In this document: positions 1 through 19,906 of the stretch, piece by piece
Numbering within the stretch: the first letter of the stretch is position 1
Layout of the letters: each line of letters begins with the position of its first letter
Virus record (IMG/VR): IMGVR_UViG_3300049216_000608
Coordinates: 1-21,007 of that record
Strand: one strand, 5' to 3'
DNA length: 21,007 nt
From: a virus
Notes under the pieces: generated by a model
Databases searched by the model: none
What the model was told of the DNA's origin: nothing
Seen by the model: only the letters and a program-made list of their open reading frames with translations
Made by a program: the position numbers and the translations under genes

Positions 1-372
1 TCAGGGCGGCGATTTGCCGCCGCGGGTCAGGGCGGTCATGAGCCGAAGAATGGCGGCCTGGCCCTCGTCGTCGAGGTCACGGTAGAGGCGGAGGAAGGCG
101 AGCTCCGTGGCATCGCCGGCGCGGGCCTCGGCCTCGCGGTCGGCGCCGAATTCGAGCCAGGCGGGGCTGACGCCGAATTCCTTGGCCAGACGGCGGATAT
201 TTTGGCGTCGCAGGCCGTGCGTCGCGTTGACCCAGGCGTGGATGGTGGGCTGCGAGACGCCGAGCCGGCGCGCGAGTTCCGCGCCGCTGATGCCGCGGGC
301 TGCCATGGTTTCGCGGATACGGCCGGCCACGGCCTCGCGAATGGCGGCGAGGGATTCGTCTTGTCGGTCCAT
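1..372 (-). CDS. Xre/cI-type phage repressor, short form
   Basis: A 123-residue DNA-binding protein, probably the lysogeny repressor that shuts off the rightward genes. Residues about 14-74 form a classic Xre helix-turn-helix: the stretch GISGAELARRLGVSQPTIHA gives the two core helices, followed by NIRRLAKEFGVSPAWLEFG, the usual end of this domain in phage repressors. The remaining tail (LAFLRLYRDLDDEGQAAIL) is a short helical segment that may serve for dimerisation. There is no S24 LexA-like peptidase domain, so RecA-stimulated self-cleavage is not expected and induction would need another route. The gene is divergent from the GcrA-like gene across 75 bp that hold a palindrome. The ATG at 370-372 (reverse strand) has no strong ribosome site. 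The stop codon is the first three bases of the window. A chromosomal regulator is possible but less likely given the phage context. Confidence 0.85.
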   Translation of the reverse strand: MDRQDESLAAIREAVAGRIRETMAARGISGAELARRLGVSQPTIHAWVNATHGLRRQNIRRLAKEFGVSPAWLEFGADREAEARAGDATELAFLRLYRDLDDEGQAAILRLMTALTRGGKSPP

Positions 373-397
373 GTTGTCGCGCTAGAGGAGATGTCAT

Positions 398-410
398 TAG
401 GTTGCACCTA
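398..410. promoter_or_regulatory. Palindromic operator candidate in the divergent control region
   Basis: TAGGT-TGC-ACCTA is a perfect 5-bp inverted repeat with a 3-bp centre. It lies between the divergent repressor and GcrA-like genes and directly abuts the -35 box of the rightward promoter. A further CCTAA half-site lies at 433-437, within the -10 region, inverted relative to TTAGG at 397-401. The position suits a repressor that blocks rightward transcription and regulates its own gene. Binding is inferred from position and symmetry only. Confidence 0.5.
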
Positions 411-440
411 TTGACAGCGCTAATCGGATTTGCCTAACAT
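411..440 (+). promoter_or_regulatory. Rightward early promoter, likely leaderless
   Basis: A consensus -35 box TTGACA (411-416), an 18-bp spacer and a -10 box TAACAT (435-440, four of six consensus bases). The expected transcription start, 6-8 nt after the -10 box, falls at 446-448, which is on the ATG at 448. No ribosome binding site precedes that ATG, so a leaderless mRNA is the simplest reading. The operator candidate at 398-410 touches the -35 box. Confidence 0.6.
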
Positions 441-447
441 CCGCCGC

Positions 448-852
448 ATGAGCAGCGAACCCAGCCTGGCCCCGATGCGGGATTTGGACGTGGAAACGCT
501 GCGGCGACTGTGGCGGGAGTATCTGCCGGTGCGGGCGATCGCCAGGGATCTCGGGCGGACGCCCCGGCAGATCGAGGCGATGGCGCGGCAGCTGGGCCTG
601 GCGCACCGGGACCAGGCGGCGGTGGAGCATGCGGGACGCCTGCGCGCGGCCGCCTGTGCGCTGCGCCGCGCGCGGGAGGCCAGCGAAGAGGCTTTTCCGC
701 GGGCGATGAGCGCGCGTGCGGCGGCGGCCTTGGCTGCTTCCCGCAGCGTTCCGTGGAGCGGGCGCCGAGGGGACCTCCCGGTGCTCAACGCGGCACTGGA
801 GGGCGCGGGGCAGCGGCCGGTTTATGTTCCGTTCCGGGAACTGCTTCCATGA
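448..852 (+). CDS. GcrA-like helix-turn-helix regulator
   Basis: A 134-residue protein whose N-terminal part resembles the DNA-binding end of GcrA, the alphaproteobacterial cell-cycle regulator: LDVETLRRLWREYLPVRAIARDLG followed by RTPRQIEAMARQLGL matches the pattern of a tryptophan-bearing helix, an alanine-rich turn and a terminal RLGL-like helix. GcrA proteins work with sigma-70 at promoters, often with methylated GANTC sites. The rest is Ala/Arg-rich with no motif I recognise, ending PVYVPFRELLP. A TTG start at 430 is possible, but it lies inside the promoter -10 region and would not be transcribed, so the ATG at 448 is preferred. The gene is the first rightward gene opposite the repressor, the usual place for an early regulator. 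I infer a transcription factor of early or late phage genes. The family assignment rests on pattern memory, not on a search. Confidence 0.65.
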   Translation: MSSEPSLAPMRDLDVETLRRLWREYLPVRAIARDLGRTPRQIEAMARQLGLAHRDQAAVEHAGRLRAAACALRRAREASEEAFPRAMSARAAAALAASRSVPWSGRRGDLPVLNAALEGAGQRPVYVPFRELLP

Positions 853-947
853 GGCGGGGCGCGACGCGACCGGCAGCCGCCGGCGTATGCGGCGCCGATG
901 CGCGGACCCAGCGGGATAGTCACCATCACAACCAGGGATCAGGCATC

Positions 948-998
948 ATGAGCACGCCGTGCGCTTTTCCGCTTGCCACGCTTGAGCTGCACGCATGA
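948..998 (+). CDS. 16-residue leader ORF overlapping the next gene
   Basis: A tiny ORF (MSTPCAFPLATLELHA) with an AGGGA ribosome site at 934-938, 9 nt before its ATG. Its TGA (996-998) overlaps the ATG of the following gene (995-997) in an ATGA junction. The following gene has no ribosome site of its own, so translating this leader would feed ribosomes to it. No function of the peptide can be read from its sequence. It could also be chance, since nothing but the ribosome site and the junction supports it. Confidence 0.4.
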   Translation: MSTPCAFPLATLELHA

Positions 999-1531
999 GC
1001 GGGGCGCGGCGGCCCGACGGCCGGGGGACCAGGGAACGGAGCCGCGGGAGCGCGGTTGTGGCGCCGGCGACCCAGGGCGCGTGGGCATCGCGGCCTGGGC
1101 GGCGAGAGGTGCTGAGCGAGCGGCGGATCACCGCGACGCGCAGCCAGCCGCTCGAGGTTACTCGTTACGATGACGCGACGGTGTACGACCGGTTGCTGCA
1201 TGCGAACCTGATCACCAACCGCCAGCACGACGCGGCACGGATCGCGCACATGCTGTTCCTCGCGGCCGGGCTGGTGCCACGCGTGGTGGGGCGGCTCGAC
1301 ACGCTCGATGAGGCGTTGGAGGAGATTTTCGAGCCCCGGCAGGAACGCGAGGCGCGCGACCCCGACGCGCCGTCGCCGAGGGACAAGTATCGGGCGATCA
1401 TGCGGCGCCTGGGCGGGTTCCACGCGGGGTTGGTGGAAGGCGTCTTGCTTGGGCAGTCGCCGACGCGGGCCTGGGTGGCGAGCCTGGCGGCGGGATTGGA
1501 CAAGCTCGGCGACATTCTGGGATTGCGTTAG
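995..1531 (+). CDS. DUF6456-like protein, possible phage regulator
   Basis: A 178-residue protein of unknown function. Residues 1-38 are Arg/Gly-rich and look disordered. From about residue 58 the layout resembles the alphaproteobacterial DUF6456 domain as I remember it: TVYDRLLHANLITNRQHDAA (an early helix ending in Gln-x-x-Ala-Ala), AGLVPRV, then a gap, DKYRAIMRRLGGFHAGLVEG, and a final helix LAAGLDKLGDILGL. The ATG at 995 forms an ATGA overlap with a 16-codon leader. A GTG at 1109 would remove the disordered part and is an alternative start. It is the last gene before an intrinsic terminator at 1563-1605. Its place directly upstream of a promoter-terminator pair ahead of the terminase genes is where lambdoid phages carry the antiterminator Q, but there is no sequence evidence that it is one. 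Confidence 0.7.
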   Translation: MSGARRPDGRGTRERSRGSAVVAPATQGAWASRPGRREVLSERRITATRSQPLEVTRYDDATVYDRLLHANLITNRQHDAARIAHMLFLAAGLVPRVVGRLDTLDEALEEIFEPRQEREARDPDAPSPRDKYRAIMRRLGGFHAGLVEGVLLGQSPTRAWVASLAAGLDKLGDILGLR

Positions 1532-1562
1532 CGACGGCGCCGGGTTCGGCGGCCGAATTCGG

Positions 1563-1605
1563 GGGCGGCGGGGTGCGATGGGCGCCTCGCCGCCCTTGGT
1601 TTTTT
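1563..1605 (+). terminator. Intrinsic terminator after the early regulator genes
   Basis: GGGCGGCG (1563-1570) pairs perfectly with CGCCGCCC (1588-1595). The stem continues inward through a G-U pair and GGTGC/GCGCC to give about 14 bp with two G-U pairs and a 5-nt loop. It is followed by TTGGTTTTTT. It lies 32 bp after the stop of the DUF6456-like gene, so it ends the early rightward transcript. Confidence 0.85.
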
Positions 1606-1613
1606 GGCGTGTC

Positions 1614-1649
1614 GCGGGCGTTGTCGGGGGCTTTGCCGGGGGCGTTGTC
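1614..1649. repeat. Three 12-bp tandem repeats (iteron-like)
   Basis: Three consecutive 12-bp units, GCGGGCGTTGTC, GGGGGCTTTGCC and GGGGGCGTTGTC, follow the terminator directly. Units 1 and 3 differ at one base and unit 2 differs from unit 3 at two. The spacing is close to one helical turn. It could be a protein-binding array near the duplicated promoters or a slippage product in G-rich DNA. No coding frame across it looks real. Confidence 0.6.
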
Positions 1650-1676
1650 GGGGCCGCCGGAAAGCCGCGTGCGTTT

Positions 1677-1743
1677 CTTCGGATTTTCCTTTACATGGGG
1701 GTTCGAATTTCGTATCTGTTTCCCGGGGAGGCGAACTGCGTCC
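1677..1743 (+). repeat. Promoter cassette copy A of a 67-bp direct repeat
   Basis: This 67-bp segment aligns without gaps to 1871-1937, exactly 194 bp downstream, with 50 of 67 bases identical by my count. Conservation is not even: the first 15 bases (CTTCGGATTTTCCTT), the -35 and -10 boxes, and CGGGGAGGCGA at the expected transcript start are kept, while the spacer between the boxes has diverged. That pattern is what selection on a promoter and its flanking sites would leave. Confidence 0.75.
1690..1718 (+). promoter_or_regulatory. Promoter A (upstream copy)
   Basis: TTTACA (1690-1695), a 17-bp spacer and TATCTG (1713-1718). Transcription would start near 1725 with GGGGAGGCGA. The box CTTCGGATTTTCC directly upstream is shared with promoter B and could be an activator site. 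It is weaker than B by its -35 box. Confidence 0.6.
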
Positions 1744-1870
1744 ACGGTTTGGCGGGCGGCGCGGTGAATACCTCTCTTCCAATCATGGACATGGAAAAAT
1801 TCTTCCGGTTCCGACATCGCGGCGCGGTGGCGGGGATCGATATTTCAGCGTTCGGATCGACGCGAAAAAA

Positions 1871-1937
1871 CTTCGGATTTTCCTTGACAGCTTGGCGAGG
1901 ATTGCGTATGTCTCTCGCGGGGAGGCGAGGTGTGTCC
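1871..1937 (+). repeat. Promoter cassette copy B of a 67-bp direct repeat
   Basis: The second copy of the 67-bp cassette, 194 bp after copy A and in register with it over the whole length. The conserved blocks are the 15-bp upstream box, the promoter hexamers, and the 11-bp box CGGGGAGGCGA at the expected first transcribed bases. Confidence 0.75.
1884..1912 (+). promoter_or_regulatory. Promoter B, candidate late promoter
   Basis: A consensus TTGACA (1884-1889), a 17-bp spacer and TATGTC (1907-1912). The start is expected near 1919. About 100 nt downstream an intrinsic terminator precedes the terminase genes, so this is the best candidate for the late promoter of the structural operon, active in full only when that terminator is bypassed. 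Confidence 0.7.
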
Positions 1938-2020
1938 GTCGCGCTGCCGGCCCCGAGACACGATGAACCCGAATTCGATCACGCCCAGGCCGACGCTGTC
2001 GGCTGGGCGTGATTTGTTTT
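1919..2020 (+). ncRNA. Putative ~100-nt terminated transcript (6S-like leader RNA)
   Basis: The interval from the predicted start of promoter B to the end of the terminator U-tract. The 5' half can fold, for example GTGTC (1932-1936) with GACAC (1957-1961) and GGGG (1919-1922) with CCCC (1951-1954). The 3' half is the terminator stem. Nothing else shows that it is a functional RNA. It may simply be the aborted late transcript, as the lambda 6S RNA is. Confidence 0.4.
1978..2020 (+). terminator. Strong intrinsic terminator upstream of the terminase genes
   Basis: The left arm 1978-1994 pairs with 1998-2013 to give 16 base pairs with one bulged G (1988) and a GCT loop. It is followed by TTGTTTT (2014-2020). 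It ends 11 bp before the small terminase ATG at 2032, so late transcription from promoters A and B must pass it to reach the structural genes. This suits an antitermination or attenuation switch. It could alternatively insulate the terminase genes, but no promoter is visible after it. Confidence 0.85.
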
Positions 2021-2031
2021 GGTGACAAAAC

Positions 2032-2355
2032 ATGCGGCGACGCAAGGCGGACGCTCGCGGGAGCGGGGTGCGTGACGCGCGGCCTCGGCTCACCAGGGAC
2101 GACATGGTCGAGGCCTGCATCGAGACACTCTATGCCATTGCGATGGATTGCGGGGAGTCCGGCAGCACACGCGTGGCCGCGATCACGCGCATCCTCGACC
2201 GCGAGATCGGCAAGGCGGCATCGCCCAACCCCAACCTGAACAGGAGCGATGTCGGCGCACTCAGCGACGATGAGCTGCGAGACGAGCTCGCGCGCCTTGA
2301 ACGAGCGATTGCTGACGCTGACGCGCGAGAGGCGGACGCGGCAACTTCGCCGTAG
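2032..2355 (+). CDS. Small terminase subunit-like protein
   Basis: A 107-residue protein in the small terminase position directly before the large subunit. Small terminases bind the packaging site as rings and load the large subunit. The N-terminus is basic (MRRRKADARGSG). The middle (DMVEACIETLYAIAMDCGESGSTRVAAITRILDREIGK) has the helical look of phage small terminases that mention a gene-dosage-like TRVAAI...LDREIGK core. The C-terminus (LSDDELRDELARLERAIADADA) is a charged helix suited to oligomerisation. The ATG at 2032 sits 6 nt after GGTGA, which is a weak ribosome site just past the terminator. The function is inferred mainly from position and size, since no catalytic motif exists to test. 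Confidence 0.7.
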   Translation: MRRRKADARGSGVRDARPRLTRDDMVEACIETLYAIAMDCGESGSTRVAAITRILDREIGKAASPNPNLNRSDVGALSDDELRDELARLERAIADADAREADAATSP

Positions 2356-3709
2356 CTTCGAGGAGTTTGTCCGCGACGGGATGGCGCGGCTGGGCCTCGC
2401 ACCCGCCGCGCATCACCGGTTGCTGATCCGCGAACTGCAGGACGTGGCCGGGGGACGCCGGACACGGCTGATGGTGAACATGCCGCCGGGTTCGGCCAAG
2501 AGCACCTATGCCAGCGTCTGGTTCCCGGCCTGGGCGATGCATCGTCGGCCGGGGTTCGACGTGATCGCGGCGAGCAATATCGCGGCGACCGCGGAGGGGT
2601 TTTCGCGCGGCGTGATGGGAGTCGCGCGGGACCATGCGCAGACGCTCGGCTATTCGATCCTGCGGCAGGCGGCGGCGGATTGGACGACGACGACGGGGGC
2701 GCGCTTCCGTGCCGTGGGCGTGGGCGGCACGATCACCGGTTCGCGCGCGGACCTGGCGCTGATCGACGACCCCGTGAAGTCCCGGGAGGAGGCGGATTCG
2801 CCGCTGATCCGTGAACGGCAATGGGATTGGTTCAACGCGGATCTGCGCACACGCCTCAAGCCGAATGCGGCGATCGTGCTGGTGATGACGCGCTGGCACG
2901 AAGACGATCTCGGCGGACGGCTGTTGCGGTATCAGCCGGGTTTGTGGCGGGTGGTTTCGCTGCCGGCGGTGGCGGGCGAGGCCGATCCGCTGGGACGCGC
3001 GCCCGGGGATTTTCTTTGGGACGACGACTATGGGTTTGGCGGGGAGCTGCGCCGGATCAAGGACGAGTTCGACGCGGCGGGCGCCACTCGGGAATGGCAG
3101 GCGCTTTATCAGCAGGACCCGCGTCCGCGCGAGGGGATGATGTTTCGTATCGGCTCCGTGCCGTTCCTCGAGGCAGCGATGGCCGGGGGGACGCGGGTAC
3201 GCGCGTGGGACCTGGCGGCGACGTCGGCGATGGGCACGCGGGATGGGGACTGGACGGTCGGGGTGCGGCTGGCGCGCCACGAAGACGGGCGTCTTGTCGT
3301 CGAGGATGTGATCCGCCTGCGCGGCGGACCGGACGAGGTGGATGCGGCGATCATGTCCACCGCGATGACCGACGGGACGGGTGTGGCGATCCACCTGCCG
3401 CAGGACCCGGGACAGGCCGGCAAGATGCAGGCGATGTACCTGACGCGACGGCTCGCGGGGTTTCATGTGACGGCCAAGCCCGTGAGCGGCAGCAAGGCTG
3501 TAAGGGCGGGGCCGTTCGCCTCGCAGATCAATGTCGGGAACGTGTCGATCGTTCGGCGGGCGTGGAACCGGGCTTTTCTGGAGGAGCTCGCCGGGTTTCC
3601 ACACGCGGCGCACGACGACCAGGTGGATGCGGCGGCCCTTGCCTTCGAGGCGCTGAGCTGCGCGCCGGAAGCGGCGCGGGGCGTTCGGGTGGGAATCATG
3701 CGGAGATGA
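2249..3709 (+). CDS. terL: Terminase large subunit
   Basis: The 486-residue packaging motor and nuclease. The ATPase part shows Walker A PPGSAKST (about 79-86), Walker B LALIDDP (169-175) and the coupling motif VMTRWHEDD (212-220). The nuclease part shows the RNase H-like acidic residues in AWDLAAT (D321), RDGDWTVGV (D332/D334) and AHDDQVDAA (D456, D457, D460). This is the T4-gp17-like family with the Terminase_6 type C-terminus. All key residues are present and the length is normal. The start is uncertain: ATG 2249 overlaps the small subunit by 107 bp and has AGGAG only 2 nt upstream, while ATG 2270 or TTG 2297/2309 would still keep both domains. The stop overlaps the next ORF as ATGA (3706-3709). 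Confidence 0.95.
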   Translation: MSAHSATMSCETSSRALNERLLTLTRERRTRQLRRSFEEFVRDGMARLGLAPAAHHRLLIRELQDVAGGRRTRLMVNMPPGSAKSTYASVWFPAWAMHRRPGFDVIAASNIAATAEGFSRGVMGVARDHAQTLGYSILRQAAADWTTTTGARFRAVGVGGTITGSRADLALIDDPVKSREEADSPLIRERQWDWFNADLRTRLKPNAAIVLVMTRWHEDDLGGRLLRYQPGLWRVVSLPAVAGEADPLGRAPGDFLWDDDYGFGGELRRIKDEFDAAGATREWQALYQQDPRPREGMMFRIGSVPFLEAAMAGGTRVRAWDLAATSAMGTRDGDWTVGVRLARHEDGRLVVEDVIRLRGGPDEVDAAIMSTAMTDGTGVAIHLPQDPGQAGKMQAMYLTRRLAGFHVTAKPVSGSKAVRAGPFASQINVGNVSIVRRAWNRAFLEELAGFPHAAHDDQVDAAALAFEALSCAPEAARGVRVGIMRR

Positions 3710-3711
3710 CA

Positions 3712-3948
3712 ATGGGCAATCCAATCGGCGCGGCCTGTCAGGCGATCAAATCAGGCCAGGGCTACGTCGCCGCCGCCTCTGGCGCGGGGATGACGACAGC
3801 GCGGCTGATCGAGCTTCTGCTCGGGCGCTCGAAGTGCACACCGCGCGAGGCCGCACGCATCGGTGCCGCGACCGGACAGAGTGCTGCGCAGCTCGCCGTG
3901 GCGGACCCGGACTTCCAGCTCCTGGCGAACCGGAACGGGGCACTCTGA
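3712..3948 (+). CDS. Small hypothetical protein between terminase and portal
   Basis: A 78-residue protein (MGNPIGAACQAIKSGQGYVA...) of unknown function. The ATG at 3712 has GGAG at 3702-3705 with 6-nt spacing; an in-frame ATG at 3706 also overlaps the terminase stop (ATGA) but has no usable ribosome site. The sequence is a run of short amphipathic helices, including TTARLIELLLGRSKCTPREAARIGAATGQSAAQL, whose look recalls a small helix-turn-helix, but no family is recognised. Its TGA shares a base with the portal ATG (TGATG, 3946-3950), so it is co-translated with packaging genes. A packaging accessory or head-morphogenesis role would fit but is only inferred from place. Confidence 0.65.
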   Translation: MGNPIGAACQAIKSGQGYVAAASGAGMTTARLIELLLGRSKCTPREAARIGAATGQSAAQLAVADPDFQLLANRNGAL

Positions 3949-5369
3949 TGTTCCGGCGGCTGGCGCAGAAATTCCCGCGTGATCCCGATTATCCGGCGCG
4001 TGTCCGCAGGCTTGCGATCCTGCGCGCGGTGCTCGACGGCACGATCTATGACGTGCTGCCCTACGAGTTCTTCGAGGAATACAACGACGCCGGCGAGTAT
4101 GTGCCGCTGCGCGATCGGGCGCCGTCCGTGCGGTCCAATCTCTGCCGGGCGGTCGTCGAGGACAGCGTGGCGCTGCTGTTCGGCGAACGCCACTTTCCAA
4201 CCGTGGTGTGCGAGGACGAGGCCGCGCGCGCGGCCCTCGAGACGCTGATTCGCGAGACCAAGCTCAACGCCGTGATGATGGATGGCGCGACCAGGGGGGC
4301 GGTGGGCTCGGTCGTGTTTCACATGCGCATCCTGAAGGGCCGGCTGTTCTTCGATGTGCTCGACACGGAATACCTGACGCCGACCTGGGACCAGGACGCA
4401 CCGGACCGTCTGCTGCTTGTGACCGAGCGGTACAAGGTGAAGGGCGAGGACCTCGCGGCGCAGGGCTACGCAATCGCGCCGGACGCGCTGGGCGCGGATC
4501 ACTGGTTTCAGCGCGAATGGGACGCGGAGCGGGAAATCTGGTACCGGCCGCAAGCCCGCGGCGATGACCGGCCGATGCGGATCGATGCGGAACGGACGGT
4601 GCGGCACGGGCTTGGCTTTGTGCCGATGGTGTGGGTGCGGAACCTGCCGGGCGGCGACGCGATCGACGGGGCATGCACGTTCCGTTTCGGCATCGAGGAC
4701 GCCATCGCGATCGACTACCAGATGAGCCAGGCCGGACGAGGCTTGTCGTACTCCTCCGACCCGACCTTCGTGGTCAAGGAGCCGGCGGGGGATGAGGGCG
4801 CGTTCGTGCGCTCGGCCTCCAACGCGTTGATCGTGAGCAAGGACGGCGACGCCAAGGTGCTGGAGATCAGCGGGACGGCGTCGGGTGCCGTCATCGAGTA
4901 TTGCCGCGCGGTGCGCGAGATGGCGCTCGAGGCGATGCACGGGAACCGTGCCGACCCGCGGCGCTTCAGTGGGGCGCAATCCGGGCGGGCGCTGGAGTGG
5001 ATGAACCAGGGTCTGGTCTCGCTCGCCGACAAGCTGAGGATTTCCTATGGCGAGGGCGCGCTGCTGTCGTTGCTGACGATGGCGGTGCGGGCTTCGCAGC
5101 GCTACCCCGTGCGCATCGGCAACCGGGATACGACGCTCAAGGAATTTGACGTCTCGCTTCGCTGGCCGCCCTGGTATTCGCCGACCTGGCAGGATCGGCA
5201 GGCTCAGGCAGGCGCGATGCGGACCCTCATCGATGCCGGCGTCCTGAGCACGGCCACCGGGACGGCGCTGGTCGGGCACACCTACGACATTCCCGACGTG
5301 GCCGCCGAGCGGGCACGCATCGCCGGGGAGTGCGCGACGCGGCCCGGGACGACACCGATCGTCGCGTGA
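3948..5369 (+). CDS. Portal protein, SPP1 gp6-like
   Basis: A 473-residue portal, the dodecameric ring through which DNA enters the head and to which the tail joins. The N-terminal run AILRAVLDGTIYDVLPYEFF and VRSNLCRAVVEDSVALLFGE follows the pattern of SPP1-type portals, as do the later RFGIEDAIAIDYQMSQAGRG and SYGEGALLSLLTMAVRASQR segments. Length is in the usual range. The ATG at 3948 overlaps the previous stop by one base (TGATG). An upstream in-frame extension exists but would overlap the previous gene by over 100 bp. It lies in the normal order terminase, portal, scaffold, capsid. No MuF-type minor head protein follows it. Confidence 0.9.
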   Translation: MFRRLAQKFPRDPDYPARVRRLAILRAVLDGTIYDVLPYEFFEEYNDAGEYVPLRDRAPSVRSNLCRAVVEDSVALLFGERHFPTVVCEDEAARAALETLIRETKLNAVMMDGATRGAVGSVVFHMRILKGRLFFDVLDTEYLTPTWDQDAPDRLLLVTERYKVKGEDLAAQGYAIAPDALGADHWFQREWDAEREIWYRPQARGDDRPMRIDAERTVRHGLGFVPMVWVRNLPGGDAIDGACTFRFGIEDAIAIDYQMSQAGRGLSYSSDPTFVVKEPAGDEGAFVRSASNALIVSKDGDAKVLEISGTASGAVIEYCRAVREMALEAMHGNRADPRRFSGAQSGRALEWMNQGLVSLADKLRISYGEGALLSLLTMAVRASQRYPVRIGNRDTTLKEFDVSLRWPPWYSPTWQDRQAQAGAMRTLIDAGVLSTATGTALVGHTYDIPDVAAERARIAGECATRPGTTPIVA

Positions 5370-5412
5370 CGTCGCCGCCCTGCCGCCATCGCCTCCAGAT
5401 CCAGGGGTAGTC

Positions 5413-5928
5413 ATGATTCCGTTTCGTTATCCGACCTTCGCCAGGGCGCCTGACGGGGACGCCGGCGAGGCTGTGCCCAAGTCGCCAGCCGATGCCGCGG
5501 GCTTCTCACCCGACTACGTGCGCGAGCTGCGCCAGGAGAACAGGGGCTGGCGGTTGAAGGCGACGGAGCTGGAAGCGGCCGCGCACCGGGCTCGGGAGGA
5601 ACTCGACCAGGCGCGGGCCGAGGCGGAGCGGCGAATTGTTCGCGCCGAACTCAAGGCGGTCGCGGCGCGCGCGGGGATGGTCGATCTCGACGGGATCAAG
5701 CTGCTGGACCTTTCGCGCGCGCGGCTTTCCGAGACCGGGGAGGTCGAGGGCGCGGACGAGATCATCGGGGCGGCCCGCCGGGAGCGGCCGTGGCTGTTTG
5801 GGGATGCGCGCACCAGCAACTCCGTCGCCCCTCCCCGCCCCCGCGAAGCGCGGGACATCCGCGACGCACGCCAGATGACGGCGAAGGAGTTCGCCGAGGC
5901 GAAGAAAAGCCGCTTCTGGCGGCGCTGA
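5413..5928 (+). CDS. Scaffold protein
   Basis: A 171-residue scaffold-like protein directly before the major capsid gene. Residues about 34-87 (YVRELRQENRGWRLKATELE... to KAVAARAG) form a long charged coiled coil. The next part, MVDLDGIKLLDLSR...DEIIGAARRERPWLFG, is the helical unit commonly seen in phage scaffolds of this type. The C-terminus is short and basic (AEAKKSRFWRR), as in scaffolds that bind the coat through a basic tail. It has AGGGG 5 nt before the ATG. It should direct procapsid assembly and then leave. No protease domain is present and no separate head protease gene is seen, so it probably exits intact or is cut by a protein encoded elsewhere. Confidence 0.85.
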   Translation: MIPFRYPTFARAPDGDAGEAVPKSPADAAGFSPDYVRELRQENRGWRLKATELEAAAHRAREELDQARAEAERRIVRAELKAVAARAGMVDLDGIKLLDLSRARLSETGEVEGADEIIGAARRERPWLFGDARTSNSVAPPRPREARDIRDARQMTAKEFAEAKKSRFWRR

Positions 5929-6039
5929 CAGGACATTTTGATTGCAAACCGACCATCCGCGCGCGGGGCATGCCCGGCGCGGCGCGTGCCATCGGGCCAC
6001 GACGGCCTGGGCATAACCCCTAACCGTTGAGGATCTCGC
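5929..6039 (+). other. Leader of the major capsid gene
   Basis: A 111-bp gap, long for this operon. It holds the perfect palindrome GGGCATGCCC (5966-5975) inside GC-rich sequence that can form several alternative stems, and a good ribosome site GAGGA (6029-6033) before the capsid ATG at 6040. No clear promoter or U-tract is seen. It may shape capsid translation or mRNA stability. Confidence 0.4.
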
Positions 6040-7398
6040 ATGGGTATCAACAATCTTCCCACGACTCTGCAGAGCGTCATCCAGCAGGGATATCTCGAGC
6101 GCGAGTTCGAACAGGCGCTGCGGGCGGAACTCGGGTTCCGCGCGATTGCCGATCGCGAGCCGTTCATGGCGGGGATCGGCGAGACGCTGACCAAGACGCG
6201 CACCGGGCTGCTGCCGGCGGTGACGACGCCGCTCGCGCCGCCCGCCAACGCGGACATCACCTCCGGACTCATGCCGCAGAATTACGGTGTGGAGCAGTAC
6301 ACGCTCTCGGTGAACCAGTATGCGGCGAACCAGATGCTGAACGTGGTGACCGCGCGCGTCGCGATCGACGATCTGTTCCTTAACAACGCGCGGACGCTGG
6401 CGGAGCAGGCGGCGCGGTCCGTCGACACGCTGGCGCAGGCCGCGATTTTCGGCACGTATATGGGCGGCAACACGCGGGTGATCACCACGCTGGGTGCCGC
6501 GGGGCCGGTTGTCCATGTCGATGACATCCGCGGGTTCCTGTCCACGTGGAACGCCGAGGGGCAGCCGGTTTCGGTTTCGGCCGGCAACACGGTTTCGGTG
6601 ACGGTGGGTGCGGATGTGTACACGCTGTCGGCGGCGGCGGCGGATGCGACCAACATCTCGACCGCGCCGGGGGGGATTTCCGGCAGCCTGACCTTTACCA
6701 CCAGCGTCTCGGTGGCGGATGGGACCGCGGGGAATTCGGTGGCGTCCGCGGTGGCACCCGTGGTGATGCGGCCGCTCAACGCCTCGAACAATCTGATGGC
6801 GGGGACGACGCTCGCGATCTCGGCGGCAAGCGATGTGAACAGCGCGAAGCTCACCATGCAGATGGTGCTGAACGCCAAGGCGACGATGAAGGCCAACGGC
6901 GTGCCCCCGGTGACGGCGACGGGCAACTATATTTTCTACGCCGACCCGCTGCAGATGACCGGGCTCTACAGCGACCCCGCGTTCCAGTTCTTCTTCCGGG
7001 GCCGGCCGGATACGTCCGAATACCGGCGCGGCCTGGTGGCGGAGATGCTGGGTGTCGATATCGTGGAGACCAACATCAACCCGGTGCAGGCGCTCTCCGG
7101 CGTGGGGACGGTGCGGCGCGGCATTCTCTGCGGCCAGGGCGCGCTGGTCGAGGGCGTGTTCACGCGGGAAGGTTACGCGGCGACGAACCAGGCGGACGAT
7201 GACGCGATGATCGCGATCGTCGATGACATCGCGCACATCACGCGCGAGCCGCTGGATGCGCTGAAGCAGGTGGTGACGCAGACCTGGAACTATATCGGCG
7301 GGTTCGCGGTGCCCTCCGACATCAACACCAACCCGAACACGATTCCGACCGCGAACAACTCGGCGTTCAAACGGGCGATCATCCTCGAGAGCCTGTGA
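6040..7398 (+). CDS. Major capsid protein with an inserted beta-rich domain
   Basis: A 452-residue coat protein that forms the head shell. It follows the scaffold, starts at a strong GAGGA site and has the composition of an HK97-fold coat: an N-terminal helix (LQSVIQQGYLEREFEQALRA), central helices (ARTLAEQAARSVDTLAQAAI) and a C-terminal core with YIFYADPLQMTGLYSDPAF, VDIVETNINPVQ and GQGALVEGVF. Residues about 175-263 differ: they are Ser/Thr/Val/Ala-rich, lack charge, and sit between two helices (DIRGFLSTW and DVNSAKLTMQMVLNAKATMK), as an insertion would. It may stabilise or decorate the capsid, in the manner of the P22 coat I-domain, by analogy only. The assignment rests on position, size and pattern, not on a diagnostic motif. 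Its stop overlaps the next ATG (TGATG). Confidence 0.85.
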   Translation: MGINNLPTTLQSVIQQGYLEREFEQALRAELGFRAIADREPFMAGIGETLTKTRTGLLPAVTTPLAPPANADITSGLMPQNYGVEQYTLSVNQYAANQMLNVVTARVAIDDLFLNNARTLAEQAARSVDTLAQAAIFGTYMGGNTRVITTLGAAGPVVHVDDIRGFLSTWNAEGQPVSVSAGNTVSVTVGADVYTLSAAAADATNISTAPGGISGSLTFTTSVSVADGTAGNSVASAVAPVVMRPLNASNNLMAGTTLAISAASDVNSAKLTMQMVLNAKATMKANGVPPVTATGNYIFYADPLQMTGLYSDPAFQFFFRGRPDTSEYRRGLVAEMLGVDIVETNINPVQALSGVGTVRRGILCGQGALVEGVFTREGYAATNQADDDAMIAIVDDIAHITREPLDALKQVVTQTWNYIGGFAVPSDINTNPNTIPTANNSAFKRAIILESL

Positions 7399-7592
7399 TG
7401 GCGAAGGCCAGGACCGCGGCGGAGACCCACGAGACGCGACGTCTCGTGGGTTACCGGCTGCGGCGGGGGTTCGTGCTGTTCACGGGGCGGACGCATCGGG
7501 CGCTGCTCGCGGGCGAAATCGTGCCGGCGGAGGATGACGTCGTGACGATGTTGTTTCGCGGGGGCGCCGACCTCGAACCGGTTTTGGAGTGA
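7398..7592 (+). CDS. Small hypothetical protein after the capsid gene
   Basis: A 64-residue basic protein (MAKARTAAETHETRRLVGYR...). The central RLRRGFVLFTGRTHRALLAGEIVP and the acidic PAEDDVVTMLF end give a small beta-rich domain, a common look for proteins between capsid and connector genes, but I recognise no family. Its ATG overlaps the capsid stop. The codons for residues about 10-18 form a perfect 12-bp hairpin (see 7425-7451), so its sequence is under an RNA-structure constraint or its amino acids happen to give one. Confidence 0.6.
   Translation: MAKARTAAETHETRRLVGYRLRRGFVLFTGRTHRALLAGEIVPAEDDVVTMLFRGGADLEPVLE
7425..7451 (+). other. Perfect 12-bp RNA hairpin just after the capsid gene
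   Basis: ACCCACGAGACG (7425-7436) and CGTCTCGTGGGT (7440-7451) are exact reverse complements around a CGA loop. It begins 27 nt after the capsid stop codon, inside the next gene. No U-tract follows, so it is not an intrinsic terminator. It could protect the 3' end of capsid mRNA, lower expression downstream, or mark a processing site. Confidence 0.7.
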
Positions 7593-7596
7593 GGCC

Positions 7597-8001
7597 ATGT
7601 CGGGGTTCGCTTCCTATGTCTTCGGTGAGCAGCAGCTGGCGGATATCAGGCGGTTCTGCGGGTATCCCGCGATCGGTGACGGGAATGTGGTGTTTCCGTT
7701 TCCTTGGATCATGCGGCAATACCTGGCACTCGAATACCGGTTGCAGCATCTGAGCGAGACCGACGGGGCGACGCTCGTTTCGCAGTACCTCACGCCGCTC
7801 TATGCGATCGAGCAGTCGCTGGGCGCGGTTTACCAGAATCTCGACACCGCTCAGGCGGCGGTGTGGACGCACAACGCGAATGAGCAGCGTGACAAGGTGG
7901 CGTCGTTCACGTGGTGGCGGCGGCGGCTGTGCGCGTTCCTGCAGGTGCCGCCGGGGCCCGAGCTGACTACGCCCGACGGCACGATCCGGATGGTGGTGTG
8001 A
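7597..8001 (+). CDS. Head-tail connector-like protein
   Basis: A 134-residue protein in the position of the first head-completion protein. It starts with an aromatic-rich helical part (GFASYVFGEQQLADIRRFCGYPAIGD) followed by helices (LALEYRLQHLSETDGATL, LYAIEQSLGAVYQNLDTAQAAVW) and a Trp-rich FTWWRRRLCAFLQVPPG motif. Helical bundles of this size that bind the portal are typical of gp6-like connector proteins, which is why I propose that role. The ATG has GAGTGAGG upstream. The sequence has no conserved residue that proves the family, so this is an inference from order and predicted helix content. Confidence 0.6.
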   Translation: MSGFASYVFGEQQLADIRRFCGYPAIGDGNVVFPFPWIMRQYLALEYRLQHLSETDGATLVSQYLTPLYAIEQSLGAVYQNLDTAQAAVWTHNANEQRDKVASFTWWRRRLCAFLQVPPGPELTTPDGTIRMVV

Positions 8002-8002
8002 C

Positions 8003-8662
8003 GTGGACCAGGCGGGGCTGCAGGCGAAGGCGAATTATGCCTACGGGAAAGCAGCGGGGATTCTGGGATCGACGGTCGACGTCTTCCGGCCGGATTCCAG
8101 GCAGGCGCTGATACCGGCGCTGGATTCACGTTACGTGACCGGACGGATCATGGCGTGGTTCAACCCGGACCCGCGATTTGGTTCGATATCGCCGGCGGCG
8201 GCCGACCGGGCGGTGGTGTTTGCATCGCTCGACCGGATGCTGCTCGAGGCCGGGGACTACCTCATGGATGCGGACCAGAACACATGGTTCGTGGGATCGT
8301 TGCAGCCGATGATGGCGACACCCTGCGTGCGGTGTACGCGCGCGTTCACGCTGACGCGCGCGGTGCCGATGGTGGGGGATGCGGCCTATGGCGGGAACGC
8401 GCCGGCCAACATGCGGACGATCCTGACGCTGTGGCCCGGCTTTATCGCGCCGAAGTCGCGCGGGATGAGCCCCGAGGAACGCGTGCCGGGCGAAACAAAG
8501 CTGAACGCCGTGCTGATCAACCTGCCGGTGACGGCAGGGGCACAGATTATGCCCAACGATGTTCTGGTCGACGACCAGGCCGATCCCATGCGCTACACGG
8601 TGAGTATCGCGACGGCGACGGATTGGGGCTGGACCATCGACGCCTATTACGCCGGAGCCTGA
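8003..8662 (+). CDS. Head closure-type structural protein
   Basis: A 219-residue protein, GTG start one base after the previous stop. It looks beta-rich with a Cys pair in TPCVRCTRAF (about residues 107-116) and later MPNDVLVDDQADPMRYTVSIA, a pattern of short strands and turns. The N-terminus (LQAKANYAYGKAAGILGSTVDVFRP) recalls neck proteins that begin with a helix and then meet a beta domain. Position between a connector-like gene and the tail terminator-like gene suggests the head-closure or neck role. No family motif is certain. The two cysteines could bind a metal or form a bridge in the particle. Confidence 0.6.
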   Translation: MDQAGLQAKANYAYGKAAGILGSTVDVFRPDSRQALIPALDSRYVTGRIMAWFNPDPRFGSISPAAADRAVVFASLDRMLLEAGDYLMDADQNTWFVGSLQPMMATPCVRCTRAFTLTRAVPMVGDAAYGGNAPANMRTILTLWPGFIAPKSRGMSPEERVPGETKLNAVLINLPVTAGAQIMPNDVLVDDQADPMRYTVSIATATDWGWTIDAYYAGA

Positions 8663-8663
8663 C

Positions 8664-9719
8664 ATGGCCGATACCGCGGATGTGGAGCGCGCGCTGGTCG
8701 CGGTCTGCGCCGGCGCGCTGTTTCCCGCAGGCGGTTACGCTTACGGAGCGACGGCTGCCAGTGCCGTCAGCGTGGCCCAGGAGAACGGTGCGAGCACGAC
8801 CCTCTCCTGCCGGCTGTATCGGGGCTGGCCATCGACCGACACGCTGAACGCCGACCTTGCGAAAGGTGTCGCCCATGTCTCGGTCTATCCTGAGGCGGAC
8901 GCGGGGCAGAACGCGACACGCTACTTCACGAAATGGTGGCAGGCTCCGCGGGCTGCCCCCACGCTGACGGCGTCCGTCACGCAGGGCACGACGAGCGCCA
9001 CGGTCACGTGGGCGGGCGCGTGCGCGGTAAACCAGCTCGCGGGCGTTGCGGTGGGCGCCGGTCGCACGCCGGCGACCTACACCTATGCGGTGCAGGCGAC
9101 CGATACGCCGGCAAGCGTGGCGGCGGCGCTGGCGGCGCTGATCGCGGGAGCCTCGGCGAACGGGGCGGTGCTGACCGTACAGGATGGTTCGTGCCTGGCG
9201 CGGGTGGCGCAGGGAACGACGGCGACCTCGTTGCTGCGACAGATCAAACAGCGGTACCGGATCAATGTCTGGTCTGCCTCGCCGCAGGCCCGGGATGCGC
9301 TGGCGGGCGTGCTCGACCTGGCCTTCGCGCAGATTTTTCGCCTCGCCATGCCGGACGGATCGCCCAGCCTGCTGCGCTACGGCGGCACGCTGGTATCCGA
9401 TTTTCCGGCACGGCAGGCGGAGTGGAACCGCACGCTGGTGATGCAGGTGGAATACTCGACGGCACGGGTGGAGAACCTCGCCGCGGTGCTGTTCCCCGCG
9501 GGCAGCATCAACGGGACCGCGTTTGGCGCGCAGCCGCCGCTGCCGGCACTGATCTACACCGACATGACAGGCAATGTGCTGATGGATGCGAACGGGCTTC
9601 CCATGGGTGGCAGCGGCGTGGTGACCGGCGGCGCCGTGCAGCCGCGGGCGAACGGGTACGTCACCACCGGAGGCGCGATGCTGATTGATATCTTCGGCAA
9701 TCCGGTGGTGGGACCATGA
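8664..9719 (+). CDS. Tail terminator-like protein with inserted domain and C-terminal extension
   Basis: A 351-residue protein. Residues about 195-280 (RYRINVWSASPQARDALAGVLDLAF, then RYGGTLVSDFPARQAEWNRTLVMQVEYSTA) follow the tail terminator pattern: a strand, an arginine-bearing helix and a final strand with W-R-x-L...YST. The N-terminal part (DVERALVAVCAGALFP) and RLYRGWPSTDTLNADLA complete that fold, interrupted by about 90 residues (95-185) that include ASVAAALAALIAGAS. The C-terminal 60 residues (YTDMTGNVLMDANGLPMGG...) are Gly-rich and not usual in this fold. The stop overlaps the tailspike ATG (ATGA). The role is to cap the tail tube and join it to the head, by analogy. The insertion and tail have no assigned function. 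Confidence 0.65.
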   Translation: MADTADVERALVAVCAGALFPAGGYAYGATAASAVSVAQENGASTTLSCRLYRGWPSTDTLNADLAKGVAHVSVYPEADAGQNATRYFTKWWQAPRAAPTLTASVTQGTTSATVTWAGACAVNQLAGVAVGAGRTPATYTYAVQATDTPASVAAALAALIAGASANGAVLTVQDGSCLARVAQGTTATSLLRQIKQRYRINVWSASPQARDALAGVLDLAFAQIFRLAMPDGSPSLLRYGGTLVSDFPARQAEWNRTLVMQVEYSTARVENLAAVLFPAGSINGTAFGAQPPLPALIYTDMTGNVLMDANGLPMGGSGVVTGGAVQPRANGYVTTGGAMLIDIFGNPVVGP

Positions 9720-12700
9720 GCGGGACGACGACGGTTCAGGGGGTTTCGCTCCAGAGTTTCGTGGGAGCGGTCTCGCCGCAGGTTTTCACGACGCCCTACA
9801 CGGCGATCGGAAACACCGCCCGCAGCCTGCTGACCCGCGCGCAGGAAGTGGTGAATGTGAAGGATTTCGGCGCGCCCGGCAGTGCTGGGGGGGACTCGGC
9901 GCCGGGCATCAACGCGGCGCTTACCTATGTGCGGGGATTGGGCGCGAGTGCCACGGCCCGCGTGGTGTTTCCGGCGGACACCTATACGCTGCTGTCGCCG
10001 ATCAATGCGACGGGGTTGCAATCCCCGGGGATCGTCATCGAGGGTTGCGGGAGCACCCTGCTGGCGGCGTTTTCCGGTGGTATCGTCTTCGACTTCTTCG
10101 ACTCGCGCTTCCTCAGGCTTCGTGACCTCGTCATTACCTGGGACGGCGCGCATGAGCCGGCCGTGGGGCTGGCCGGCGGCTCGATCGGCGCGCGGGTGGC
10201 GGATTGCCACGCGATCGAGAACGTCTTCATCGAGGGCAATTTCTCGCTTGCGTGCGCCTATTTCATTGCGACCGAGACCTCCGCGGCGCGTTCGCTCCGA
10301 TGCTGGAACGGAGACGGGAATGCGACGAGCTATGCACTGATCGTCGATGGGACCAACCATTTTGGTGTCACATCGAGTTTCGCGCCGCAGACATCGGCGG
10401 CGGACAATTTCGTCTCCTTCAACGAAATGCTGTTCGACCAGGTGGATGCCCGCAAGCCGAACGGCGGCCATGCGGTGTGGATCGGGGGCGTGAGCCGGCA
10501 TCGGTGGCAGGCGAGCTACGTCGATTGCCAGACCGCGACACAGGCCGTGGTGCTGTGGGCCTCCGCCGGCAACACCAGCCAGTCGATCACGGACCTGATG
10601 CTGGATCTGCATCAGGAGACGACGAGCTGCACGGATGTCTTCCTCGTCGACGGAACCAACGCCACACCCACGATCCAGGGGTTGAGCTACCGCGACCATC
10701 GCCCGCAGGCCAGCAGCTCCATCTTTCGCACCGCGACGCACATCACCGGCGTTGTGGCACAGAACCTGACGGTCGATATCGCGCAGGTGGCGCAGTCGCC
10801 GGTGCTGTTCGCCAATCCCACGCTGTGGACCGTTTCCGGCAGCTTGATCTCGCCGAGCAGCAGCACGATGGTCAACGTCGTGCCGGCACAGTTTTCCGGC
10901 ACGCAGCTGACGCCGCTCGGGATCGACGGGTCCGCGCTGCATGTGGCGGCGGGCAGCAATGCCGCGTCGCTGGCCACACGGTTTGGGCACGTCGCCGACA
11001 TCGTCGCCGATTACGGCGCTGATCCCACCGGCGTGGTGGACGCGACCATCGCGATCCAGGCCGCGGTCAACTCGGGCCGGCCGGTGTGGATGCCGATGGG
11101 AACATATCTGCTGGGTGGGGCCATCACGATCCCCTCCGCCGGCGCGCGGATCTATGGCGCGGGCATGGGCGTCACGGTGCTCAACTGGCAGTGCAACGTC
11201 TCCGCCTTCGTCAACAACGGGCCGATGAACGGGCAGCTCCTGCCGAGCTATGTGGAGATGTCGGAGTTCAGCATCGCGGGGAATTTCACCACCAACCCCA
11301 ACTCGGCGTTCAACAACCCGGCGACGACCGATAGCAATGTCGTTGCGGTCTCGATCTTCGGGATGGAGCGGGCGCGGCTGTTCCACGTGGAACTGACCAA
11401 TGCGCCGTTCTTCGGATTTTCTATCCACGCCTGCAAGATCGTCGATATCGAGAGCTGCATGGCCTCGATGGTCTGCCGGGACTGTTTCTCCTGTGTGGAT
11501 TCGGCCTGGGTTTCGATACGCGGATGCCGGGTTGATCATTGCGATGACGACGCGATCACCGCAGGCGTGAATGTTCCGCCGGCCGCCTGGTTTGCCGATT
11601 CGCAGCAGAATTTCATCTGTATCGGGAACCACCTGACGGACACGTATTGCATCCGCGTCGATAACCGCAAGCAGTTCACGGTTGCGGGAAACATCATCGA
11701 TCGGGCGAAGTCGCATGCGATCAGCGTTGGCGGCATCACGGTTGGCGCGACCGGCGGGTTTGGCGCCATCACCGGCAACACCGTCACCAATGTCATCAAC
11801 GAGGCCGCACTTCCCGGAATCTCGCCGGAGGACGGCGACAGCCAGTGCAATTACCTCGAGATCTACGGATACGCTGCCCATGGCGGGCTGAACGCACCGC
11901 CGGGGCAGAACGATCCCACGACCGGGTCAGTGGTGCCGCTTTACACGCATCTCTACGATACGACGGCGAACGCGCCATCCGCCGGCAGTCTCGGCATATT
12001 GGTCTCCGGCAATGTCCTCGCGCGGACGCGCCCCACGGGTGTTGCCTATACCGCGTGGGGAGAGGGCGCGATGTTCACGCGCCGGGGGTGGTTTTCCGGC
12101 ACCGTGCCGGCGAGTGCCATGAGCGGCTATGGCGCTCTCGTCGGCGGCAGCGTCGAGGACGTGACCCTCGCGGACAACAAGTTCCGTGGGCTCACCGGTG
12201 GCGTCGTCTTTGCGAATGTCCCCGGGGTGACGTCTCGCTTCCAGGGGCTGCGGATCCGGGGCTGCAGTTTCAGCGACATCGCGACGGCGGCGGCGATTGG
12301 TGTCGGCGGGTTTTCGGGCATTGCCGATATCGTCGTCGAGGATTGTGCCTTTGATCTCGATCCCTATCGCACGAGCACGCAGCGCAGCGCGGCCGGTGCG
12401 GCGACCTGGGGCGGCACGGGCGGATACCCGGTGCTGTGGGCCGGGAACGGGATGAGCATCACGCTGCGGCACTGCACGCTGCGCAATGCCTATTCGTACA
12501 CCGATGGCAGCCCGGTGAGCGGCGACGGCAACACGATCTTCGCGAATGTCGCGGGGCTCGGTGCCGCGGCCGGTAATGCCGGCGTGGGCTTTATCCCGCA
12601 GGCGGGTGCGGCGTGGCGCTTCGTCGAGCTCAACCAGACGGTGACGTCGACGAGCTTCGACAACGTGCTGCAGCTGCCGACGCTCGATGCCTCGGCCCAA

Positions 12701-13219
12701 CCCGCCAGCGGCATCTGGGTCCAGGGTCATCACGTGCACAATACCGGGCCGGCGCTGGCGGGTGGGATGCTGACCCTGGGCTGGAGCCGCTTGACGACGG
12801 GCGCCGGTAACGTGGCGGGGACCGACTGGGCGCAAGTGCTGACGATGGGTGGCACGGTGGCAGTGCGGGCGCAGCAGGGCCTGACGGCCCTGAGCAACAC
12901 CGGCGGGACGGTCATCACGGCGGCGGAGATCGTCGCGGGGTATTCCATTCGCACCGGCCAGATTGCGGCCGTGATCGATACGCTCGATACCGCGGCGGAT
13001 GTCATCGCGGCGATTCCCAACTGCGCGGTCGGAACCACGTTCAAGTACCGGAGCCTCAACACCGGCGGGTTCACCCAGACCGTGGCGCCGGGAAGCGGCA
13101 TCACCGCAAGCGGTGCGATGACGGTGGCGCCGAACACATGGCGGGAATGGATGGGCTTGGTGACGAGCGTCAGCCCGGCCGCGATCACCTTCACGAATAT
13201 TGGCAGCGGCGCTGCCTGA
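9716..13219 (+). CDS. Tailspike with two pectate-lyase-like beta-helix domains
   Basis: A 1167-residue receptor-binding tailspike that probably binds or cuts surface polysaccharide. A short N-terminal segment (1-45) leads to VNVKDFGAPG...DSAPGINAAL (46-70), the start of a Pectate_lyase_3 type right-handed beta-helix, with VVFPADTYTLLSPI next. A second such start occurs at about 428-445: IVADYGADPTGVVDATIAIQ, with GTYLLGGAITIP after it. Repeated short strands continue to about 960. The C-terminus (about 1077-1167) contains TLDTAADVIAAIPNCAVGTTF, a module I recall from other phage structural proteins. The ATG overlaps the previous stop. Tailspikes usually lie after baseplate genes, so its place between tail terminator and sheath is unusual. 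No catalytic residues can be fixed by eye. Confidence 0.9.
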   Translation: MSGTTTVQGVSLQSFVGAVSPQVFTTPYTAIGNTARSLLTRAQEVVNVKDFGAPGSAGGDSAPGINAALTYVRGLGASATARVVFPADTYTLLSPINATGLQSPGIVIEGCGSTLLAAFSGGIVFDFFDSRFLRLRDLVITWDGAHEPAVGLAGGSIGARVADCHAIENVFIEGNFSLACAYFIATETSAARSLRCWNGDGNATSYALIVDGTNHFGVTSSFAPQTSAADNFVSFNEMLFDQVDARKPNGGHAVWIGGVSRHRWQASYVDCQTATQAVVLWASAGNTSQSITDLMLDLHQETTSCTDVFLVDGTNATPTIQGLSYRDHRPQASSSIFRTATHITGVVAQNLTVDIAQVAQSPVLFANPTLWTVSGSLISPSSSTMVNVVPAQFSGTQLTPLGIDGSALHVAAGSNAASLATRFGHVADIVADYGADPTGVVDATIAIQAAVNSGRPVWMPMGTYLLGGAITIPSAGARIYGAGMGVTVLNWQCNVSAFVNNGPMNGQLLPSYVEMSEFSIAGNFTTNPNSAFNNPATTDSNVVAVSIFGMERARLFHVELTNAPFFGFSIHACKIVDIESCMASMVCRDCFSCVDSAWVSIRGCRVDHCDDDAITAGVNVPPAAWFADSQQNFICIGNHLTDTYCIRVDNRKQFTVAGNIIDRAKSHAISVGGITVGATGGFGAITGNTVTNVINEAALPGISPEDGDSQCNYLEIYGYAAHGGLNAPPGQNDPTTGSVVPLYTHLYDTTANAPSAGSLGILVSGNVLARTRPTGVAYTAWGEGAMFTRRGWFSGTVPASAMSGYGALVGGSVEDVTLADNKFRGLTGGVVFANVPGVTSRFQGLRIRGCSFSDIATAAAIGVGGFSGIADIVVEDCAFDLDPYRTSTQRSAAGAATWGGTGGYPVLWAGNGMSITLRHCTLRNAYSYTDGSPVSGDGNTIFANVAGLGAAAGNAGVGFIPQAGAAWRFVELNQTVTSTSFDNVLQLPTLDASAQPASGIWVQGHHVHNTGPALAGGMLTLGWSRLTTGAGNVAGTDWAQVLTMGGTVAVRAQQGLTALSNTGGTVITAAEIVAGYSIRTGQIAAVIDTLDTAADVIAAIPNCAVGTTFKYRSLNTGGFTQTVAPGSGITASGAMTVAPNTWREWMGLVTSVSPAAITFTNIGSGAA

Positions 13220-13231
13220 AAAGGAACCTGC

Positions 13232-13402
13232 ATGTCCGCAACACCATCGACGCCGGCCGCGGGGCCGGCGTTTCACTATGTCGTGCTTTCGCCGTTCCTG
13301 AGCTACGCGAAGGGTGACGTGATCACGGAACCAGCCGCGATCGCGGAGGTCGAGAAGCAGTATGGGCCGCACGTCGTCCGCGTGACCGCGCCCTCGTCCT
13401 GA
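13232..13402 (+). CDS. 56-residue protein before the sheath
   Basis: A small protein, MSATPSTPAAGPAFHYVVLSPFL...VVRVTAPSS, translated from an ATG with AAGGAA 5 nt upstream and ending just before the sheath gene. A short Pro/Ala/Thr-rich N-terminus precedes a small domain with FHYVVLSPFLSYAKGDVI and AAIAEVEKQYGPHVVRV, which looks like a strand, a turn and a helix. Mu-like and related phages also carry a very short gene just before the sheath, so this gene may be their counterpart, but I see no sequence match that I would defend. Its codons 7-14 form a 9-bp GC hairpin. It is too short to appear in a simple ORF search with a 60-residue cut-off. Confidence 0.7.
   Translation: MSATPSTPAAGPAFHYVVLSPFLSYAKGDVITEPAAIAEVEKQYGPHVVRVTAPSS
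13250..13271 (+). other. 9-bp GC-rich hairpin just after the tailspike gene
   Basis: ACGCCGGCC (13250-13258) pairs perfectly with GGCCGGCGT (13263-13271) around a GCGG loop. It begins 31 nt after the tailspike stop, inside the next small gene, and is followed by only two more T residues, so it is a weak terminator at most. Its placement matches the hairpin after the capsid gene. Confidence 0.5.
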
Positions 13403-13451
13403 CCCCGATGTCGGCGGCGTGAACCAGGCCATCCAACCCCGGAGTAACACC

Positions 13452-15014: not shown

Positions 15015-15045
15015 TCTTCATCCGGCACCGTAACGGAGACCTGAC

Positions 15046-15845: not shown

Positions 15846-15875
15846 CTGCCTGCTGGCTGGTGCGAAACGGGGTGG
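15815..15875 (+). promoter_or_regulatory. -1 programmed frameshift signal
   Basis: The heptamer A AAA AAC (15815-15821) is in the correct phase for simultaneous -1 slippage from the zero frame. A perfect 8-bp stem, CCACCCCG (15829-15836) with CGGGGTGG (15868-15875), starts after a 7-nt spacer, the usual distance for a stimulatory structure. Its loop of about 31 nt contains a smaller GCC-TGCT-GGC hairpin. The zero frame stops at 15845; the -1 frame is open to 15991. Confidence 0.8.
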
Positions 15876-15991: not shown

Positions 15992-16047
15992 TGCGCAGCG
16001 AGGTTTCCCTCGAAGGGACAATCGCGGGACGAGGAGATGGCGCGTGA
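15991..16047 (+). CDS. 18-residue relay ORF between chaperone and tape-measure position
   Basis: A mini-ORF (MRSEVSLEGTIAGRGDGA) whose ATG shares a base with the stop of the frameshifted product and whose TGA overlaps the GTG of the next gene (16044-16047). No function is seen in the peptide. It may keep ribosomes moving from the chaperone to the next gene, or it may be chance, since the next gene has its own good ribosome site. Confidence 0.3.
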   Translation: MRSEVSLEGTIAGRGDGA

Positions 16048-17129: not shown

Positions 17130-17142
17130 ACCCGGTGACGCA

Positions 17143-17955: not shown

Positions 17956-17963
17956 GGTGAGGC

Positions 17964-19905: not shown

Positions 19906-19906
19906 C

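Follow-up and report, generated by a model that had tools for sequence, protein, structure and literature searches.

A lambda pR'-tR'-like promoter-terminator order ahead of the terminase genes of a myovirus, and a remote GafZ (DUF6456) homologue as candidate late antiterminator

Gene layout and early region of the phage

The DNA analysed here (the window) is the whole of the virus record IMGVR_UViG_3300049216_000608, with a length of 21,007 bp. Pfam and PHROG matches identify genes for the large terminase, portal, major head protein, tail sheath and baseplate, a gene set that makes the virus a myovirus, as the original prediction had said. The best explanation for the record is a temperate myovirus of an alphaproteobacterium, with relatives found in Acetobacteraceae assemblies. 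From left to right, the locus holds a cI-like repressor gene on the minus strand, an early promoter, two genes here named Y and Z, a terminator (t1), two copies of a promoter element, a second terminator (t2), terS and terL. The structural genes follow downstream of terS and terL, over about 19 kb on one strand.

The Cro/cI-type (XRE) repressor gene (positions 1-372, minus strand; HTH_3, 5.6e-11; PHROG transcriptional repressor, 3.8e-15) is divergent from the early operon. The early promoter, TTGACA-18-TAACAT (411-440, plus strand), is the only promoter-like site given by a standard promoter scan in positions 1-20000. Abutting its -35 is the palindrome TAGGTtgcACCTA (398-410), a putative repressor operator and the only inverted repeat with arms of at least 5 within 376-460. 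The start expected from this promoter is the ATG of gene Y at 448, so the Y mRNA would be leaderless. Gene Y (448-852, plus strand) encodes a small HTH protein that weakly resembles GcrA (PF07750, E = 3.4e-4, below the cut-off; phrog_5536, 2.4e-6), and gene Z lies at 995-1531 on the same strand.

Regarding the late side, terL (2249-3709, plus strand; Terminase_6C, 2.8e-16; phrog_38, 3.1e-90) is the first gene of the ~19-kb late region, and the small terminase candidate upstream of it, terS (2032-2355, plus strand), was assigned by position and by conservation across relatives. Its ATG at 2032 is unconserved in the closest relative, L002, which has ACG there plus a 17-nt indel, and the real start may be 2104. 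Within the tail region, a 361-aa ORF (16044-17129) has no PHROG match.

A duplicated promoter element upstream of the terminase genes

The original prediction placed a late promoter ahead of the terminase genes, and its coordinates are correct: a -35 TTGACA at 1884-1889, a 17-nt spacer and a -10 TATGTC at 1907-1912. Calling it a consensus promoter is too strong, as the -10 agrees with TATAAT at 3 of 6 positions only. What had been missed is that this promoter belongs to a 67-bp direct repeat on the plus strand, with copies at 1677-1743 and 1871-1937 that are 75% identical. Copy 1 contains TTTACA (1690-1695) and TATCTG (1713-1718), also 17 nt apart, while transcription from copy 2 would be expected to start near 1919. 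An 18-mer of the repeat matches twice in the window and not once in 100 shuffles.

We compared a family of four members, namely the window, L002 (a 93% relative), and G001 and G002, two phages found as contigs in assembled genomes; G002 is split over two contigs at the promoter repeat itself. All four carry two copies of the element, with a 17-nt spacer throughout and the consensus CTTmGGATTTTCCTTkAC(A/G)-N17-TAySTNT, followed by GGGGwGGCGA. In every copy conservation reaches beyond the -35 and -10, with CTTmGGATTTTCC upstream and CGGGGwGGCGA downstream. The full element was found in 2 of 397 host-family genomes, both with this phage, and its reversed control gave 0 hits. Besides, a search of IMG/VR with the promoter core returned the 93% relative and eight chance matches in unrelated sequence.

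Since the -10 is a poor match and the site at 1884-1912 is missed by the standard scan, support for the late promoter comes from its repetition and conservation. The same scan lists no promoter between 2020 and 20000, in line with the earlier claim that none lies before the late genes, but this absence counts for little because the scan also misses the late promoter.

Repeats directly ahead of terS are a usual mark of packaging sites, and those described here are present in all four relatives. One could thus argue that the 67-bp repeats are terminase recognition (cos/pac) sites and not promoters. Given that every copy has the promoter anatomy TTkAC(A/G)-17-TAySTN, we consider this highly improbable.

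As to other signals within the element, GafYZ-type switches have a palindromic GafZ element between the -35 and the -10, where no clear palindrome common to both phage copies was found (TTCGAA is in copy 1 only). A start-site hairpin, TTCGC-N6-GCGAA, was rejected as an RNA signal, as it is broken in half of the copies.

Two strong terminators and a predicted leader RNA

The intrinsic terminator hairpin announced for this locus is present at 1978-2013, with 16 pairs, one bulged G and a 3-nt loop. It folds at -28.4 to -30 kcal/mol (z = -5.4 versus shuffles) and is followed by the U-tract TTGTTTT, which runs to 2020; the whole terminator (t2) thus spans 1978-2020 on the plus strand. Its end had been placed 11 bp before the terS ATG, which is true of a start at 2032 and not of one at 2104; as the former is not conserved in L002, this distance depends on the start chosen.

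A further terminator, t1 (1560-1606, plus strand; -36.4 kcal/mol), had escaped the original prediction; it is conserved in L002 and would close the early Y-Z operon. When both strands of the 21-kb window were searched for strong terminators, defined by dG <= -25 and at least 6 T in 8, only t1 and t2 were found, and by the same rule 0 of 60 dinucleotide-shuffled windows contained any. The two terminators flank the promoter pair, and both lie within a 0.5-kb stretch. From the promoter and t2 together we predict a terminated leader RNA of about 100 nt (1919-2020, plus strand).

Conservation of the promoter and terminators in relatives

Between the window and L002, identity is 84% in t1, 91% in promoter element 1, 93% in element 2 and 95% in t2, where 42 of 44 positions are identical. 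The sequence between the elements is 56-72% identical, and the leader between promoter and hairpin 69%. Both terminators and the promoter repeats are therefore conserved islands in L002. A chance resemblance without function would fit the poor -10 and the silence of the standard scan, but is hardly credible in view of these phylogenetic footprints and of the 0 of 60 and 0 of 100 shuffles obtained for the terminators and the repeat.

The leader folds better than shuffles (z = -4.2) and forms a discrete promoter-terminator unit, as would be expected from a stand-alone small RNA of ~100 nt, with t2 just ending the RNA and insulating terS, and late transcription coming from elsewhere. This explanation is improbable: the part of the leader ahead of the hairpin is poorly conserved, a match to 1919-2020 is absent from Rfam, and the scan lists no other promoter before the late genes.

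Both promoter copies persist in the more distant relatives G001 and G002. The t2 hairpin is absent from the two, and in neither does the leader fold better than its shuffles. Either their switch works by initiation control, or it uses another kind of terminator, or they are decayed prophage copies. Judging from these sequences, a switch by terminator alone does not apply to the whole of this phage group, and because this is the main counter-evidence, we hold the reading of the locus as a late switch with moderate confidence. Gene Z is kept in all four family members, and the position of Y holds a different gene in G001 and G002.

The retention of both promoter copies without t2, together with conservation well past the -35 and -10 in all of them, would suit control of the late genes at initiation. 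According to this explanation, the repeats form a tandem activator- or repressor-controlled promoter, Z and/or Y would be an initiation factor that binds the conserved stretches around -49 to -37 and +1 to +14, and t2 would merely trim leakiness. We find it rather unlikely, as t2 is strong and is as conserved in L002 as the promoter itself.

Gene Z is a remote homologue of DUF6456 proteins

The early gene next to the switch had been described as DUF6456-like, which is correct, by remote homology only. Z gives no hit to Pfam DUF6456 (PF20057) up to E = 5, and thus does not reach the curated cut-off; hence we call it a remote homologue and not a Pfam member. Sequence searches of Pfam, PHROGs and PDB and a PDB fold search with Z returned nothing. 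The homology appears in profile, profile-profile and transitive comparisons. In a search with an HMM of phage-type DUF6456 proteins that pass the cut-off, Z and its relatives ranked ahead of all unrelated ORFs, and the profile-profile comparison of Z with DUF6456 gives a probability of 96% (E = 4e-9). In a single comparison, Z matches the DUF6456 protein of contig L101 at E = 1e-8, and the latter passes PF20057 at 7e-10. With a structural model of pLDDT only 62, Foldseek gave an unnamed phage protein as the best match (3e-7) and phage proteins named DUF6456 at E 0.026 and 0.19. Z is without an 11-residue stretch of the C-terminal region that is present in other DUF6456 proteins.

GafA homologues carry the annotation DUF6456 (PMC9638019, PMC9765227), and Caulobacter GafZ is the counterpart of the C-terminal part of GafA (PMC11150451). 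In 2024, GafZ was reported, with experimental support, to be an antiterminator of the gene transfer agent (GTA) cluster of Caulobacter, which loads at the promoter and acts likely with NusA, NusE and NusG (PMC11150451). The proposal that the phage antiterminator would be a new family consequently falls, since the nearest known antiterminator is GafZ. We found no description of a DUF6456-type antiterminator as a phage's own late switch. Neither Y nor Z hits the lambda Q families PF03589, PF06530 and PF06323. Gene Y is unlikely to be the antiterminator, having been replaced by a different gene in G001 and G002 while Z is kept; Z is thus our candidate for this role.

Recurrence at other DUF6456 loci

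In contig L101, the DUF6456 gene is directly before terS-terL; L119, L121 and L124 have it ahead of terS/terL as the final early gene that was recognised. L124 has TTTACA-17-TACTAT and, after ~100 nt, the contig's only terminator, which abuts the terS ATG; L119 has TTGACC-17-TATATT and then a terminator, with 28 nt between it and the terL ATG. The order of promoter, ~100-nt leader, terminator and terminase is thus also found in two unrelated viral groups that carry DUF6456. With a promoter-terminator rule fixed once L119 and L124 were already known, 4 of 5 DUF6456 terminase loci (three independent groups) had both elements, versus 1 of 36 control terminase loci. A pair comparison of L123 and L124, made by eye on the folds, showed the hairpin stem preserved through three double changes, with a weaker U-tract in L123 than in L124.

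By the rule used, L101 has neither promoter nor terminator, and L095 has no terminator, though both contain terminase and a DUF6456 gene; in L090/L091 and L099 a terminator is present but a good promoter is not. The genome DUF6456 loci L092-L098, of which L094 lies in transposon-like sequence, do not present the promoter-terminator-terminase arrangement. According to these comparisons, the recurrence at DUF6456 loci is suggestive, not proof, of a common design; as far as it goes, it argues against control at initiation.

Two further motifs were seen at these loci. In the AT-rich group formed by L124 (2771-2885) and the end of L123, a small inverted repeat CTAC-N4-GTAG lies directly downstream of the -10, ahead of the terminator, and is a possible RNA or DNA signal. 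In L090 (1348-1850) and L091 (4963-5100), a conserved TTGAAATCsCCGCGGrAGTGTGTCT and then a strong terminator come directly after the Z-like gene, and in L090 an HNH-endonuclease-like frame stands between that terminator and terS.

A proposed late-gene switch and its known counterparts

We propose that the locus is a lambda pR'-tR'-like late-gene switch, probably worked by the GafZ-like protein Z in place of Q. The order of early regulator, t1, promoter, ~100-nt leader, t2 and terminase is present in the window, conserved in L002 and recurrent in unrelated DUF6456 contigs. In the proposed sequence of events, the cI-like repressor would shut the early promoter at 411-440; upon induction, Y and Z would be made from a transcript ended by t1. 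Polymerase would then start at the duplicated late promoter and, without Z, stop at t2, giving the ~100-nt leader RNA. The near-consensus -35 suggests that the late promoter needs no activator, so that a block after initiation would be needed to silence the late genes, and t2 may be such a block. Finally, Z would load on polymerase at promoter-proximal DNA, allowing it to pass t2 into terS, terL and ~19 kb of head and tail genes, an action that we infer from the homology to GafZ and the position of the gene.

The likeness to lambda that had been predicted is borne out in the order of the elements. As in the pR'-6S-tR' region with Q, Q21 or Q82, a regulator gene immediately upstream, a near-consensus late promoter, a short leader RNA, an intrinsic terminator and the late genes follow one another; the terminator between late promoter and late genes is found in the window and L002, and is absent in G001 and G002. 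Q genes hold equivalent positions though unrelated in sequence (PMC7171158). Unlike lambda, Z is outside the three Q families, the promoter is duplicated and the leader is of ~100 nt; moreover, a sigma-dependent pause element was not recognised, with no obvious -10-like repeat at +1 to +7.

A DUF6456-type regulator is shared with GafY/GafZ of the Caulobacter crescentus GTA (PgtaT, terGTA) and with Rhodobacter capsulatus GafA. In GTA control, too, a terminator downstream of the promoter keeps transcription of the structural cluster in check, the regulator operon is under a repressor, and the regulator is one of two adjacent genes. GafZ has GafY encoded beside it; the neighbour of Z is the HTH gene Y, which resembles GcrA weakly, and in G001 and G002 it is another gene. 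The CcGTA promoter -10, TATCTTT, fits the TATSTNT pattern of the phage element. Unlike in the GTA, the phage regulator adjoins the promoter within the phage itself, the promoter element is duplicated, and the terminator is before the first gene and not after it; and, unlike GafZ, Z is below the Pfam cut-off.

GafA and GafY are also initiation activators (PMC9638019, PMC11150451), a further point in favour of initiation control. Against it, the phage -35 is TTGACA or TTTACA, consensus or near it, whereas the activator-dependent PgtaT has a degenerate AATCAT and needs GafY and IHF (PMC11150451). A CcGTA promoter with a near-consensus -35 is active without GafYZ (PMC11150451).

AlpA of Pseudomonas aeruginosa is an antiterminator loaded via a DNA element at the promoter (PMC11150451, PMC7969949). 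The loading at a promoter element proposed here for Z is alike in mode rather than in recognisable sequence, and AlpA belongs to a host cell-death system and is not a phage late switch.

DUF6456 proteins in phages and gene transfer agents

As a tentative and more general idea, DUF6456 might be a widespread phage late antiterminator family, a further 'Q' lineage whose genes usually close the early region, or nearly so, ahead of the terminase genes. GafZ/GafA of GTAs would then be a domesticated branch, and the GTA on-switch would be inherited from such a phage switch. The switch proposed for the present locus would itself be the natural phage setting of a GafZ-type antiterminator, compact enough (1.6 kb for regulator, promoter and terminator together) to be moved easily into a reporter, and would open the question of how GTA control arose to testing. 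A role would also be suggested for DUF6456, a domain without an assigned function that occurs where early genes give way to late ones in phage-like viral contigs.

A tblastn search for DUF6456 relatives in named phages detected GafA-like proteins in RDJL Phi 1/2 and R4C, the genes of which do not adjoin terminase where inspected, so that they lend no support to the positional argument. In Roseobacter phage RDJL Phi 1 (HM151342, 21915-23694), the GafA-like DUF6456 gene gp38 is beside the ctrA-like gp37 and far from terL. The record MW462191, named 'Bacteriophage sp.', has a gafYZ-like pair by host genes and resembles a fragment of a bacterial chromosome; it may be misclassified.
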